This document shows positions 3,379 through 9,269 of a stretch of DNA of 12,540 nucleotides, piece by piece (positions within the stretch are counted from its first letter, which is position 1; each line of letters begins with the position of its first letter). The stretch lies in the NCBI GenBank assembly GCA_005879255.1, contig VBKY01000275.1:1-12540 (forward strand). Reading direction: 5' to 3'. The notes beneath the pieces were generated by a model that did not search any database, was not told where the DNA came from, and saw only the letters and a list, made by a program, of their open reading frames with translations. The position numbers and the translations under genes are program-made. The stretch is from Deltaproteobacteria bacterium. Lineage in GTDB: Bacteria > Desulfobacterota_B > Binatia > UBA9968.

Positions 3379-4110
3379 ATGTCAGTCTGGGAACGTGGCG
3401 AGCTTTCGATTTATTACGAAACCCATGGTTCGGGGTTTCCGCTGTTGCTCATCGCCCCCGGGGGCATGAACTCGGTGATCGGCTTCTGGAACCGAGCGGC
3501 GTTTAACCCGATCGAAATCTTCTCCAGGGAATACTGGGTTATCGCCATGGACCAACGCAATGCCGGTAGGTCGAAGGGCCCGCTCGACTTGACCGATCCG
3601 TGGGGCAGCTACGCGGAAGATCAGCTTGGGCTGATGAACCATTTGGGCATCGAGCGATTCCATGTGCTCGGTTGCTGCATAGGATGCTCGTATGCGCTTA
3701 GATTGATCCAGCGCGCGCCCGAGCGGGTGGTCGCCGCGGTGATCGAGCAGCCGATCGGCGTCTCCGACGAGAACCGCAACGTCCTGGCCAAAAACCTCTA
3801 TGGTCGATGGGCCGAGGAACTTCCCAAGCAGCGGCCTGAACTTGAACCGGAAAAAGTGGCAGCGTTCGGCAAGCGCATGTTCACCGGCGATTTTGTCTTC
3901 AGTGTGACCAGAGAGTTCGTCAAAGGTTGCGACACCCCGATGATCGTTATGCCGGGCAACAACCTGGACCACCCGCGAGTGATCGGCAACGAGATTGCGG
4001 CGTTGGCGCCGAACTCAGAACTCATTCCGGAATGGCGCCATCCGCCGGAGCTCGTCCCGCCCGCGGTAGCGCGTATAAAAAACTTTCTCAAAACCCATAC
4101 GCCAAGCTAG
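3379..4110 (+). CDS. Alpha/beta hydrolase with cysteine nucleophile
   Basis: A cytosolic protein of 243 residues with the alpha/beta hydrolase fold. The oxyanion-side loop is PLLLIAPGGM (21-30) and the strand VIAMDQRNAGRS (54-65) is typical of the superfamily. The nucleophile elbow reads V-L-G98-C99-C100-I101-G102-C, so the nucleophile position is C100 instead of the usual serine, as in dienelactone hydrolases. Late in the chain are MPGNNLDHP, with D197 the likely acid, and EWRHPPE, with H221 the likely base. The start at 3379 follows GGGAGG 7 nt upstream; two earlier in-frame ATGs (3337, 3352) lack a site. It is divergent from the binding-protein operon. Its stop lies a few bases before a palindromic repeat. 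The substrate is unknown; a lactone or ester is the natural guess. Confidence 0.85.
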   Translation: MSVWERGELSIYYETHGSGFPLLLIAPGGMNSVIGFWNRAAFNPIEIFSREYWVIAMDQRNAGRSKGPLDLTDPWGSYAEDQLGLMNHLGIERFHVLGCCIGCSYALRLIQRAPERVVAAVIEQPIGVSDENRNVLAKNLYGRWAEELPKQRPELEPEKVAAFGKRMFTGDFVFSVTREFVKGCDTPMIVMPGNNLDHPRVIGNEIAALAPNSELIPEWRHPPELVPPAVARIKNFLKTHTPS

Positions 4111-4649
4111 GAAAAAGCTCGAAACTCGAAATCCGAAATTCGAAACTCGAAACAAATCCAAATGATCAAAATTCACAAAGTTCCAAACAGATTCGATTCG
4201 GATCGAGGTTTTCAAACTTCTCAGATTTTAGACTTATTTGACTTGGAGTTTGTTTCGGATTTCGGTGCGCCGGTAAAAAAAACCGGCAAGGTGTTGTGAA
4301 TGAAAGTTTCATACGGTGAAGGATTAGCGATCCGCACCGGCTCCGAGTCATGCATCGGCGTTCGCAAGGGCGCAGGTGAAGCGTTGACAGGGGTACGTAT
4401 AGGCCAGGTATTGAGCCGCGAAATTGAAACCCCACCGTGGAAACGGTGGCTACTTCGGGGTGCCGACGCTGTCGAAATATGCGGAAGGCAAAACTGGGGG
4501 CGTCGATATCGCGAGACGCTTTTGGACTCCGCGCGGTCTGAGACCCTGTGCATGCACGTAAGCACCTTGAGCGGGAACCGGGAGATCCTGTGTCTGTCTG
4601 GGGAAGAGAAAACCCCAGACCGCATCGGGAAGTCTAAGGACGCACGCCG

Positions 4650-4928
4650 ATGATACACGGGCATGGGAAGTCGGACAGCTCCATAGTACCGACAAAGCCG
4701 CCGAACGAGGTCGAGCCTGAGGCCAAGGAGCTGGTGGAGGGAAGGGGGCTGGCCAAGGGGAATTTGCTTGAGCGTAACATGTACCGGGCACAGAGCCGGC
4801 AAGGCATGTCCAGCGCGCTTGAGCGGATACGTCAAGCGGGGATGAAGGATGGGAATGAACGTTGTTATCATTCTTACTTTTCTGCCAGCATTGGCGTTAT
4901 TACCCAAGGCAAGAGCCGGATGCAGTAA
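4650..4928 (+). pseudogene. N-terminal stub of group II intron reverse transcriptase/maturase
   Basis: The first ~70 residues match the N-terminus of intron-encoded proteins: GKSDSSIVPTKPPNE (6-20), LVEGRGLAKGNL (28-39), YRAQSRQGMSSALERIRQA (45-63), then KDGNER. In full-length proteins this is followed by RFTALLHH and the reverse transcriptase domain. Here it breaks into unrelated residues and reaches a TAA at 4926-4928, inside the loop of domain V. No YADD box, maturase (X) or endonuclease domain is left. The deletion joint lies between about 4860 and 4910. Confidence 0.88.
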
Positions 4929-4985
4929 TTCTGCACGTCCGGATCCGTGCGGGGGGCCGCCCGCGAGGGCGGTTTCTACCGCGAC
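4913..4985 (+). ncRNA. Group II intron domains V and VI
   Basis: Domain V (4913-4945) has a 9-position lower helix, GAGCCGGAT against GTCCGGATC, with the catalytic AGC triad at 4914-4916, a two-base AC bulge, and an upper helix GCAG/CTGC. The loop is TAATT, so it is 33 nt with no GNRA tetraloop, unlike the familiar 34-nt form. Domain VI has the hairpin CCGCCC-GCGA-GGGCGG and a pyrimidine strand TTTCTACC in which A4978 is the likely branch point. The basal pairing is GTGCGG with CCGCGAC. Confidence 0.85.
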
Positions 4986-5021
4986 AGCTTCGGATTTCGG
5001 ATTTTGATTGGAGACCTAGGC

Positions 5022-6173
5022 ATGAAAAATGGCTTTAAAATTTTTGACACCGACACGCATGTTCGCCCCTCACTAGAAACGCTCGAGCCGTACTATGATG
5101 CAAGCGTGCGTGCGCGCTTGCCCGAGCTCGAGCCGTACAAAAGGGAGAACCGGCGCGAGGTCGAAGGCATGGTCGTCGGCCGCCATTCCTATTCGCTCGG
5201 AGAGCGCGTCGCATACTCTCGCTTGCTGGGCAAAGCCGAGCCAGAGCCCGGGCACTTCGCGCCGAGGTCAAAGTACATGGGGACACGTCATGCGACCAAG
5301 GGGGCGATCGATGACGATGCCGGCGCGCGTCTGCGTGACATGGATGAAGAAGGTGTCGACGTTCAGTTCCTCATCGGTGGAGCGGCAAACAGCGGACCGC
5401 TTAAGGACCATGAACTCGATGTCGGCTTCATGCGAGCCTACAATCGGTATCTGCACGATTTTTGCGGCAAGGCGCCGCATCGTCTGAAGGCGGCGCCGCC
5501 GGTGGCACTCGACGCGGTCGAGGAGTGCGTCGAAGAAATCAGACGCTGGGGCAAAGAGCCGTGGATGGTCGGCATTCTGCCGCAGTCACGCAACGACATA
5601 CCGCTGGATCATCCCGTGATGGAGCCGGTTTGGAAGGCCTGCGCGGACATGGGAATCGCCGTTGTTTATCACAGCCATTACGCCGGACCGCCTTACTTCC
5701 CCGGTTATCTCGATTTGTGGGCAAACGCTTTTCTCGGGCGCTCGGCGGCTCATCCATGGGGCGCGATGCGCGCAATCGGATCGTTCATCGGAGCCGGCAT
5801 CATGGAGCGCTACAAATCGCTGCGCTTCGGCATCCTGGAGAGCGGTTGTGGTTGGCTGCCCTTCTGGAGCCGGAGACTTGATGATCAAGCGGAGTACGTC
5901 TTAGGTAGCGTACCCGAGTTGGAACACAAGATCAGCGAGTACATGACCGGCGGCAGATTCTTCTCGAGCATCGAGATGTCGGAAGGCCAAGACATGATCG
6001 AGATGGTGATAAATTTCCTCGGTGAGGATGTGCTAATGTATGCCTCGGATTACCCACACTTCGAATGTCGCTTTCCAAACTCTGTAGACTATTTCTTCGG
6101 TTGGAATCTTCCCGACGAAGTGCGGCGCAAGCTGTTGTGGGACAACCCGGTGCGGTTTTACGGTGAGCCGTAG
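5022..6173 (+). CDS. Amidohydrolase_2 family metal-dependent hydrolase
   Basis: A protein of 383 residues in the amidohydrolase_2 (ACMSD-like TIM barrel) family, whose members hydrolyse or decarboxylate aromatic-derived acids with a divalent metal. The metal-site landmarks run in order: DTDTHVRP (9-16) with D11-x-H13, MEPVWKACADMGIAVVYHSH with H217, the strand LRFGILESGCGWLPFW with E273, and VLMYASDYPHFEC with D343. The C-terminus, LLWDNPVRFYG, is the usual family ending. There is no signal peptide. The start at 5022 is chosen because GGAG lies 8 nt upstream and the family begins there; a naive upstream start at 4947 would lie inside intron domain VI. The ribosome site comes directly after the split repeat. 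The MmgE/PrpD gene follows 228 bp later. The exact substrate is not deducible. Confidence 0.9.
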   Translation: MKNGFKIFDTDTHVRPSLETLEPYYDASVRARLPELEPYKRENRREVEGMVVGRHSYSLGERVAYSRLLGKAEPEPGHFAPRSKYMGTRHATKGAIDDDAGARLRDMDEEGVDVQFLIGGAANSGPLKDHELDVGFMRAYNRYLHDFCGKAPHRLKAAPPVALDAVEECVEEIRRWGKEPWMVGILPQSRNDIPLDHPVMEPVWKACADMGIAVVYHSHYAGPPYFPGYLDLWANAFLGRSAAHPWGAMRAIGSFIGAGIMERYKSLRFGILESGCGWLPFWSRRLDDQAEYVLGSVPELEHKISEYMTGGRFFSSIEMSEGQDMIEMVINFLGEDVLMYASDYPHFECRFPNSVDYFFGWNLPDEVRRKLLWDNPVRFYGEP

Positions 6174-6401
6174 GGAATTTGACGAAGATTTTAGCCGCCA
6201 AGAACGCAAAGAAAAGAGAACAAAACTCGAAGCACGAAGTCCGAAATTCGAAACAAATCCAAATGATCAAAAAGCACAAATTTCCAAACAAGCTCGTTTC
6301 AGATTTCGATTTTTGGATTTCGAATTTGAGTGCTGCGGTTTGTTTCGGATTTCGAGCTTCGGATTTCGGATTTTGATAGGAAGCGGGCTTGGAGGATCAC
6401 A
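6174..6401. other. Leader region of the MmgE/PrpD gene
   Basis: Besides repeat copy B (6218-6379), bases 6188-6217 read TTTAGCCGCCAAGAACGCAAAG..., a short interspersed sequence often seen between genes in environmental genomes and related to the motif near 954-984 on the other strand. No clear promoter hexamers stand out. GGAGG (6391-6395) is the ribosome site of the next gene. Confidence 0.5.
6218..6379 (+). repeat. Dispersed palindromic repeat, copy B (intron-free site)
   Basis: The left arm is AACTCGAAGCACGAAGTCCG, then CGAAACAAATCCAAATGATC (6249-6268), shared with copy A. The centre has diverged from copy A. The right arm, TTTGTTTCGGATTTCG (6339-6354) followed directly by AGCTTCGGATTTCGG (6355-6369), is the empty form of the intron target. 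The arms are largely reverse complements of each other, so the transcript could fold into a long imperfect hairpin. It ends 22 nt before the ATG of the MmgE/PrpD gene. Confidence 0.85.
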
Positions 6402-7742
6402 ATGGGAAAAACTGAAACGACGCTCGCGAAGTTTGCACTCGACTTCCCAACACAGGATATTCCAGCCGATGTCATGCATCTGGCCAAGCGCTGCGTGATG
6501 AATTCCTGCGGCGTCGCGCTGTATGCGACCCTGGACCCAGCTATCGATATTCTGCTCGATTTCTTGCGCGCGGAAGGCTGTGCCGCCGAAGCAACCGTGA
6601 TCGGCAAGGGATTCAGAACCTCGCCGCAAAATGCGGCCCTGGCGAACGGCTTTCTCGGCCATCTCGAGGACTACGATGATACACACACCACCGTGATTCA
6701 CCCCACCGCGCCTATTTTCCCCGCTGCCCTGGCGCTCAGCGAGGGGCGGACGGTTAGCGGAAGAGACTTACTTGGAGCGTTCGCCATCGGCGTAGAGGTT
6801 GCCTGTCGTATTGGGCTGGTGATTTACGCGCACTTCAGGGAAGGAGCGGCGCATTGGCACATCACTAACACATGCGGCGTACTCGGCGCCGCCGCTGCTG
6901 CGGGTCGTTTGCTCAAGCTCACCGAGCAGCAGATGGTTTATGCTTTCGCTATTGCAGGCACGCAAGCCTCGGGTGTCCGCGAAGTGTTCGGTTCCATGTG
7001 CAAGCCTTTTCATGCCGGTAAAGCCGCCCAGAACGGAGCAGTCGCGGCGATGCTCGCTCAGCGCGGCTTCACCGGCACCGATGGCATCTTCGAAGGCGAG
7101 CGCGGCTTGGTCGGCGTGATGGCTACGGGCCACGATATTACTGAGGCCACCAAAGATCTCGGCAGCCGTTGGGAATTACCTCAGACTGGGCTCAAGCCAT
7201 ACGCCTGCGGCCAGGCGAACCACGGATTTCTCGACGCGGTGCTTGCTCTCAGAAAGAAAAGCGGCGTCTCGCCACAGACCATCAAGCACATGCAGGGAAG
7301 CGTGCAACAGTTCGCGCCTGCGCTGGTGCGGCGGCGCCATCCGCGCACGGGCCTCGAATCGAAGTTCTGCTACTATCACTCGATGGCTGTGGCGATGATC
7401 GACGGGCAAGCGCTGCCGGCGCAGTTCACCGACGCGCGCGCTCTTGACCCTGCCGTCGGAGCGCTTAGGAACCGCATTGATTTCAGCGAAGACCCGTCGC
7501 TATCCCGCCGCGCCGCGGTTGTAACTCTCGAGCTAAGCGACGGCACTACCTATACAGAGACGATCCAGCACCCAACCGGGACGCCCGGGAATCCGATGAG
7601 CGACGCGATGGTCCAGGAAAAATTTAACGGCCTTGCAGCGGCGGCGCTCGGTGCCGAAAAAGCGGAAAAGGCGCAACGCGCGCTCTGGGAAATAGACAAG
7701 CTCTCGGACGTGCGCGAGGTGATGCCGTTTCTGACGAAATGA
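6402..7742 (+). CDS. MmgE/PrpD family protein
   Basis: A cytosolic protein of 446 residues in the family of 2-methylcitrate dehydratase, cis-aconitate decarboxylase and iminodisuccinate epimerase. The landmarks run in order: NGFLGHLEDYDDTH (82-95), HPTAPIFPAALAL (100-112), HWHITNTCGVLGAAAAAG (151-168), FGSMCKPFHAGKAAQNG (196-212), FEGERGL, and LKPYACGQANH (264-274). The residues known to form the active site in the decarboxylase have likely counterparts in D92/D93, H100, K201, K265 and H274. Length is normal for the family. The start at 6402 has GGAGG 6 nt upstream. The chemistry is probably dehydration, decarboxylation or epimerisation of a polycarboxylate; which one cannot be told. The neighbouring amidohydrolase and binding-fold genes suggest a catabolic module. 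Confidence 0.92.
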   Translation: MGKTETTLAKFALDFPTQDIPADVMHLAKRCVMNSCGVALYATLDPAIDILLDFLRAEGCAAEATVIGKGFRTSPQNAALANGFLGHLEDYDDTHTTVIHPTAPIFPAALALSEGRTVSGRDLLGAFAIGVEVACRIGLVIYAHFREGAAHWHITNTCGVLGAAAAAGRLLKLTEQQMVYAFAIAGTQASGVREVFGSMCKPFHAGKAAQNGAVAAMLAQRGFTGTDGIFEGERGLVGVMATGHDITEATKDLGSRWELPQTGLKPYACGQANHGFLDAVLALRKKSGVSPQTIKHMQGSVQQFAPALVRRRHPRTGLESKFCYYHSMAVAMIDGQALPAQFTDARALDPAVGALRNRIDFSEDPSLSRRAAVVTLELSDGTTYTETIQHPTGTPGNPMSDAMVQEKFNGLAAAALGAEKAEKAQRALWEIDKLSDVREVMPFLTK

Positions 7743-9181: not shown

Positions 9182-9269
9182 CGTCATTCCCGAATGCTTC
9201 TATCGGGAATCCAGGCGAGAACGGAAACTGGACCCCCGATTAAAACATTCGGGGGTGACGCCTTTGGGA
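9182..9269 (+). repeat. REP-like palindromic repeat, copy 2
   Basis: The second copy of the element at 775-861, in the same orientation. It has ends CGTCATTCCCG and CGGGGGTGACG (9250-9260), the same two inner hairpins, and a nearly identical right half. The left hairpin differs (CGAATGCTTCTATCGGG against CGCATGCTTTAAGCGGG), with changes on both sides of the stem that keep pairing, which suggests the fold is conserved. Confidence 0.75.

Follow-up and report, generated by a model that had tools for sequence, protein, structure and literature searches.

How a group II intron came to reside inside one copy of a dispersed repeat, and what it may still be able to do there, is the question raised by the 12,540-nt stretch of DNA analysed here, called the window throughout. 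The reading we favour, with a probability of about 0.85, is that the intron entered a repeat copy guided by its EBS sequences, and that in-frame loss of its reverse transcriptase (RT) left a small ribozyme within what is presumably the leader of a gene. The intron is delimited by the following features:

4265..4985 (721 nt), plus strand: group II intron, ORF largely deleted; Rfam matches, unique join of the flanks, EBS/IBS pairing
4303..4546, plus strand: match to Rfam group-II-D1D4-6; covariance model
4911..4985, plus strand: domains V and VI, with branch-point A4978; covariance model, 35.8 bits, below the gathering score of 40

The first-pass annotation had placed a group II intron at these positions, with the same ends and branch point, and its identity and coordinates are confirmed. 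The core matches RF02005 with 184.9 bits (E 7.8e-55, gathering score 49). A covariance-model check for domains V and VI also found them: the RF00029 (Intron_gpII) match, below gathering as listed (E 0.00045 over the window), covers the model over its full length, 1-77, with A4978 as the bulged A, followed by 7 nt to the 3' end. Group II introns start with GUGYG and end with AY; the element starts with GTGCG at 4265 and ends with CGAC, the final AC being at 4984-4985. The folded RNA is more stable than 20 of 20 dinucleotide shuffles (z -3.86). Joining the flanks, 17 nt from the left and 23 nt from the right, yields 40 nt identical to 6338-6377, in a second, uninterrupted copy of the repeat, as had been proposed. 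The uniqueness of this join held as well. When 300 x 250 (75,000) boundary pairs were scanned with 12+12 nt joins, the pair 4265/4985 gave a join present at 6343, in that second copy, and was the only non-trivial one. The pairs 4254/4988 and 4266/5000 are trivial self-matches, due to the short TTCGGATTTCG period of the flanks themselves.

The repeat hosting the intron is represented twice in the window:

4109..4264, plus strand: copy A upstream of the intron, with left arm, spacer and the beginning of the right arm; aligned with copy B and 30 copies from 12 genomes, outer boundary approximate
4986..5012, plus strand: copy A downstream of the intron, with the remainder of the right arm; 96% identical to 6355-6381
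6210..6381, plus strand: copy B, uninterrupted; insertion point 6354/6355, with 6338-6377 equal to the joined intron flanks

Copies A and B can be aligned along their length, and are 78% alike over the 104 nt to the left of the insertion site; at this level of identity they are not the product of a fresh duplication. Copy B had been described as the empty site. It is indeed uninterrupted, but it is a paralogous copy of the repeat, not an orthologous allele. An orthologous empty site was not found via the amidohydrolase and PrpD genes of the region, and the best homologues of the gene downstream of the intron within the 35 genomes of the order of the nearest relatives are only 53% identical. 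A second dispersed repeat, CGTCATTCCCG...CGGGGGTGACG, occurs in the window at 775-861 and 9182-9269, 8.4 kb apart, the copies being 86-92% alike.

The host repeat, about 155 bp long, is dispersed and has inverted, separated arms. With a threshold of E 1e-8, 12 of the 35 genomes of the relatives' order have copies (up to 23 candidates scored per genome), and the view that two elements, an intron and a truly dispersed repeat, are nested in the window is thereby borne out. The arms, about CTCGAAATCCGAAATTCGAAACAAA and TTTGTTTCGGATTTCGA..TTCGGATTTCGG, flank a variable spacer in an alignment of 26 copies, made of copy B and 25 of the 30 copies fetched; the remaining 5 were dropped, the match not spanning the element. 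The consensus fold comprises 19 pairs over the 26 copies, three of them with a double change, and its covariation term is -0.34 kcal/mol. This term is small and does not prove that an RNA structure is under selection; the element is therefore described simply as an inverted repeat. Most of the copies (25/30) lie outside predicted ORFs of at least 90 aa. Inverted arms, and many, mainly intergenic copies, are traits of REP, REPIN and MITE-type elements.

The distribution of the family was monitored by using a 31-nt core of the right arm, allowing at most 1 mismatch. Within the class, 10 of 148 genomes contain the core, every one of them from the relatives' order (reversed control, 0), with as many as 30 matches in a single genome. 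Of 395 genomes sampled from the whole phylum, 27 have it too, and these do not overlap with the 148 class genomes, which rules out that the repeat is order-specific; no match was found in 377 genomes of a second phylum. Five of the phylum loci (L170-L174) have similar arms, except for a diverged left arm in L170 and an interrupted one in L173. Such patchy spread of the core across the phylum would suit a mobile element. Some copies (L175-L180, from genomes G275 and G280, and L107) have a short GC-rich insertion (some 12-16 nt, approximately GGTCCGCGGGGCCTCT) after an arm sequence TTTCG, near a motif resembling the IBS1 of the intron. Two subfamilies of the repeat split just 3' of the intron insertion point, GAGCTTCGG versus GATATTCGG, and both window copies read GAGC. 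No description of the repeat was found in the literature by searches with sequence strings and words, judged by titles and listings. The family is potentially undescribed, on weak evidence, and represents the more open part of the case.

Whether the intron was directed to the repeat can be approached by looking at the sequences through which group II introns would recognize their 5' exon. These are in the window:

4259..4264, plus strand: IBS1 ATTTCG, 5' exon, in the repeat arm; 6/6 pairs with EBS1 CGAAAT
4473..4478, plus strand: EBS1 CGAAAT, in a terminal loop; assigned by pairing and loop position
4252..4258, plus strand: IBS2 GTTTCGG, 5' exon, in the repeat arm; 7 pairs, including 2 G-U, with the proposed EBS2
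4424..4430, plus strand: proposed EBS2 TTGAAAC; assigned by pairing with IBS2, placed post hoc

The EBS1 loop is flanked by GCCGAC and GGAAGGC. EBS1 (CGAAAU) and the proposed EBS2 (UUGAAAC) would together pair with the 13 nt GTTTCGGATTTCG directly 5' of the intron. The 13-nt target lies in the right arm, the most conserved arm of the repeat, and is found unchanged in 17 of the 26 aligned copies, window copy B included; in 15 of the 26 it is followed by the same A.

The pairings were evaluated over six introns (the window intron, L037, L040, L049, L064 and L069), five of which start with GTGCG and one with GTACG. L064 misses part of domain I, and the distance from its 5' end to EBS1 is 103 nt, compared to 172-197 nt in the others of the set. 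For EBS1-IBS1, the true assignment of introns to exons scores first among 720 permutations. For EBS2-IBS2 the rank is 102/720 with a broad window, and 1/720 with a window narrowed afterwards to the 12 nt following a conserved CGAAA-like motif. The latter window was picked after viewing the window intron and L049, and the EBS2/IBS2 pairing is for this reason only suggestive. A test on nine introns, in which none of 100000 permutations scored as high as observed and L075 pairs poorly, was set aside because the ends of L051, L070 and L075 had been chosen by eye. A related intron, in genome G272, is 85% identical to the window intron over 586 nt; its corresponding loop contains TGAACT and the exon before it terminates in AGTTCA, sequences which differ from those of the window and match each other. 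The match of EBS1/IBS1, and more weakly of EBS2/IBS2, to the repeat, having changed together relative to this cousin, gives independent support to the reading of a group II intron nested in the repeat. Since its RNA guide sequences match the repeat, the repeat looks like the chosen landing site of the intron. Six related introns (L035, L036, L064, L072, L074, L076) are preceded by 5' exons ending in ...TCC, which hints at another shared type of target.

Further intron copies at the equivalent site in other members of the repeat family, which the first-pass annotation had named as supporting evidence, were not found, either among 34 junction stretches or at loci of related introns. The 34 stretches, retrieved by scanning genome contigs for the 5' junction, contain no intron at the site; each was inspected over the 60 nt that follow the site and screened for a domain V motif, and 12 of the 34 were analysed by Rfam as well. 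Thirteen of them correspond to one conserved coding site, mostly from Mesorhizobium. Viral contigs gave 0 matches each for the left arm of the repeat, the domain V pattern and the repeat core, and in the two viral contigs matching the junction the sequence that follows is not an intron start. A looser junction pattern returned 31 matches in 22 of 148 genomes, all with 2 mismatches (reversed control, 3). Seven of these, which have GGTCCGCG in common, were retrieved and proved not to be introns; for the remaining 24, only the matched strings were inspected. No repeat was found at the visible junction of 38 loci matching the intron, many of which are overlapping or repeated fetches of the same intron, and some of which are cut by the end of their contig, so that a single junction, or neither, is visible. 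Within the class, 16 of the 148 genomes contain relatives of the intron, at different sites; up to 3 candidates per genome were scored at this level, up to 15 in the order, and all in the family. No other intron having been found in the repeat, the data support one guided insertion rather than a family of insertions.

A single occupied copy is also what would be seen had the repeat been merely where the intron fell in an ectopic move. Relatives inserted at many unrelated sites, the mainly intergenic location of the repeats, and a related intron in G270 whose end is separated by about 72 nt from a copy of the repeat, the shortest such distance seen, fit with this chance landing. Yet 13 contiguous exon nucleotides pair with EBS2 and EBS1, which is not expected at a poorly matched ectopic site, and we regard such an origin as very unlikely. 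It is also quite unlikely that the intron was carried into copy A passively, along with a moving repeat, or by recombination from another occupied copy. The repeat is multi-copy and patchily spread over the phylum, and copies A and B, at 78% over 104 nt, do not look freshly duplicated, as this route would allow; it is opposed by the failure to find any other occupied copy in the searches described above. Guided entry into the repeat arm is the preferred reading.

What remains of the protein encoded by the intron is a single feature:

4650..4928, plus strand: remnant RT ORF, an in-frame fusion of about 67 codons from the N-terminal end and 15 from the C-terminal end; alignment with relatives, stop lost

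The frame spans 92 codons and ends inside domain V at 4928, the original stop being lost. An internal in-frame deletion is visible by comparison with the introns of G272 and G270, and about 410 codons are gone. The RT had been reported as cut after about 70 residues; most of it is indeed lost, but by an internal deletion which kept the last 15 codons or so. The window intron has no intact reverse transcriptase/maturase. For reference, relative L050 encodes a group II reverse transcriptase/maturase of 491 aa (TIGR04416, 347.7 bits, cut-off 300). Because only about 67 and 15 RT codons remain, the window intron should depend on a maturase from elsewhere, and any mobility would be in trans. Related introns with no RT frame between the core and domain V were found at L051/L058 and L055 (G279), L054 (G270) and L056 (G277); one RT-less relative is complete at 665 nt, the others are only partly delimited. 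The presence of several ORF-less introns within one order is unusual. A bolder proposal would have the ORF-less intron adapted, through EBS1 and EBS2 changing jointly, to a multi-copy landing pad formed by an inverted-repeat family whose arm is almost identical across the phylum, and which it would colonize in trans by means of the maturases of resident cousins; we consider it unlikely. That the arrangement is an assembly chimera, or collapsed contig sequence, is barely credible, as the boundaries are consistent with splicing, the guides match the flanks, and the RT fragments are joined in frame.

The intron has the same orientation as the gene located at its right:

5022..6173, plus strand: downstream gene, Amidohydro_2 family, start codon presumed; profile match and ORF

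It ends 36 nt before the presumed start of the amidohydrolase at 5022, in what would be the 5' untranslated leader. The repeat copies lie among genes transcribed from the same strand, encoding an alpha/beta hydrolase, the amidohydrolase and MmgE/PrpD. No sigma-70-like promoter was seen at 4000-6500. In the scenario we propose, the intron would have reverse-spliced into one repeat copy, directed by EBS1 and EBS2 to 13 nt of the right arm, as the matching sequences suggest. According to the alignment with relatives, the RT would have lost about 410 codons by in-frame internal deletion, either before or after insertion. The compact ribozyme left behind would sit in sense orientation in the presumed amidohydrolase leader. 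Given transcription and the aid of a maturase supplied by a related intron, it could be removed by splicing, which would re-form the repeat; no mobility is expected of it alone.

The locus offers a clean example from nature, a single contig being enough to read the ends of the intron, its target and its guide pairing. It also links a retroelement with a family of repeats recurring across a phylum. Should the repeat be a true landing pad, it would show how introns shelter in dispensable multi-copy DNA.

Each element of this nested case has a precedent, and similar nestings are already known. REPs are short palindromes; compared to those of Pseudomonas putida, the window repeat is about 155 bp long, has separated arms, and is matched by the intron guides. 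In the portions of the P. putida KT2440 report considered here, a group II intron is associated with REP elements (2/9), and the likeness lies in the coupling of a group II intron to a dispersed intergenic palindromic repeat (PMC1525189). RmInt1 of Sinorhizobium meliloti has its natural target in ISRm2011-2, an insertion sequence of the IS630 family. As far as the source sections concerned go, it resembles the window intron in having a target within a multi-copy mobile element, and in fragments that persist after decay, but RmInt1 is multi-copy, has a working protein and an IS as host, whereas the window intron is single and has lost most of its RT (PMC5894124). ORF-less introns are called rare in bacteria in the passages of a review used here, and an order with several ORF-less relatives is for this reason useful for studying protein loss (PMC4424553). 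A parallel in protein loss is provided by the TeI3 introns of Thermosynechococcus elongatus, described, in the excerpts of the work relied upon, as ORF-less elements, some residing in ISEL1, with a driver protein acting in trans (PMC2882425). Both there and in the window intron the ORF has been deleted leaving N- and C-terminal remnants; in contrast, TeI3 features 17 copies sharing one deletion, while the window holds one copy, with an in-frame deletion and a helper that is only presumed (PMC2882425).
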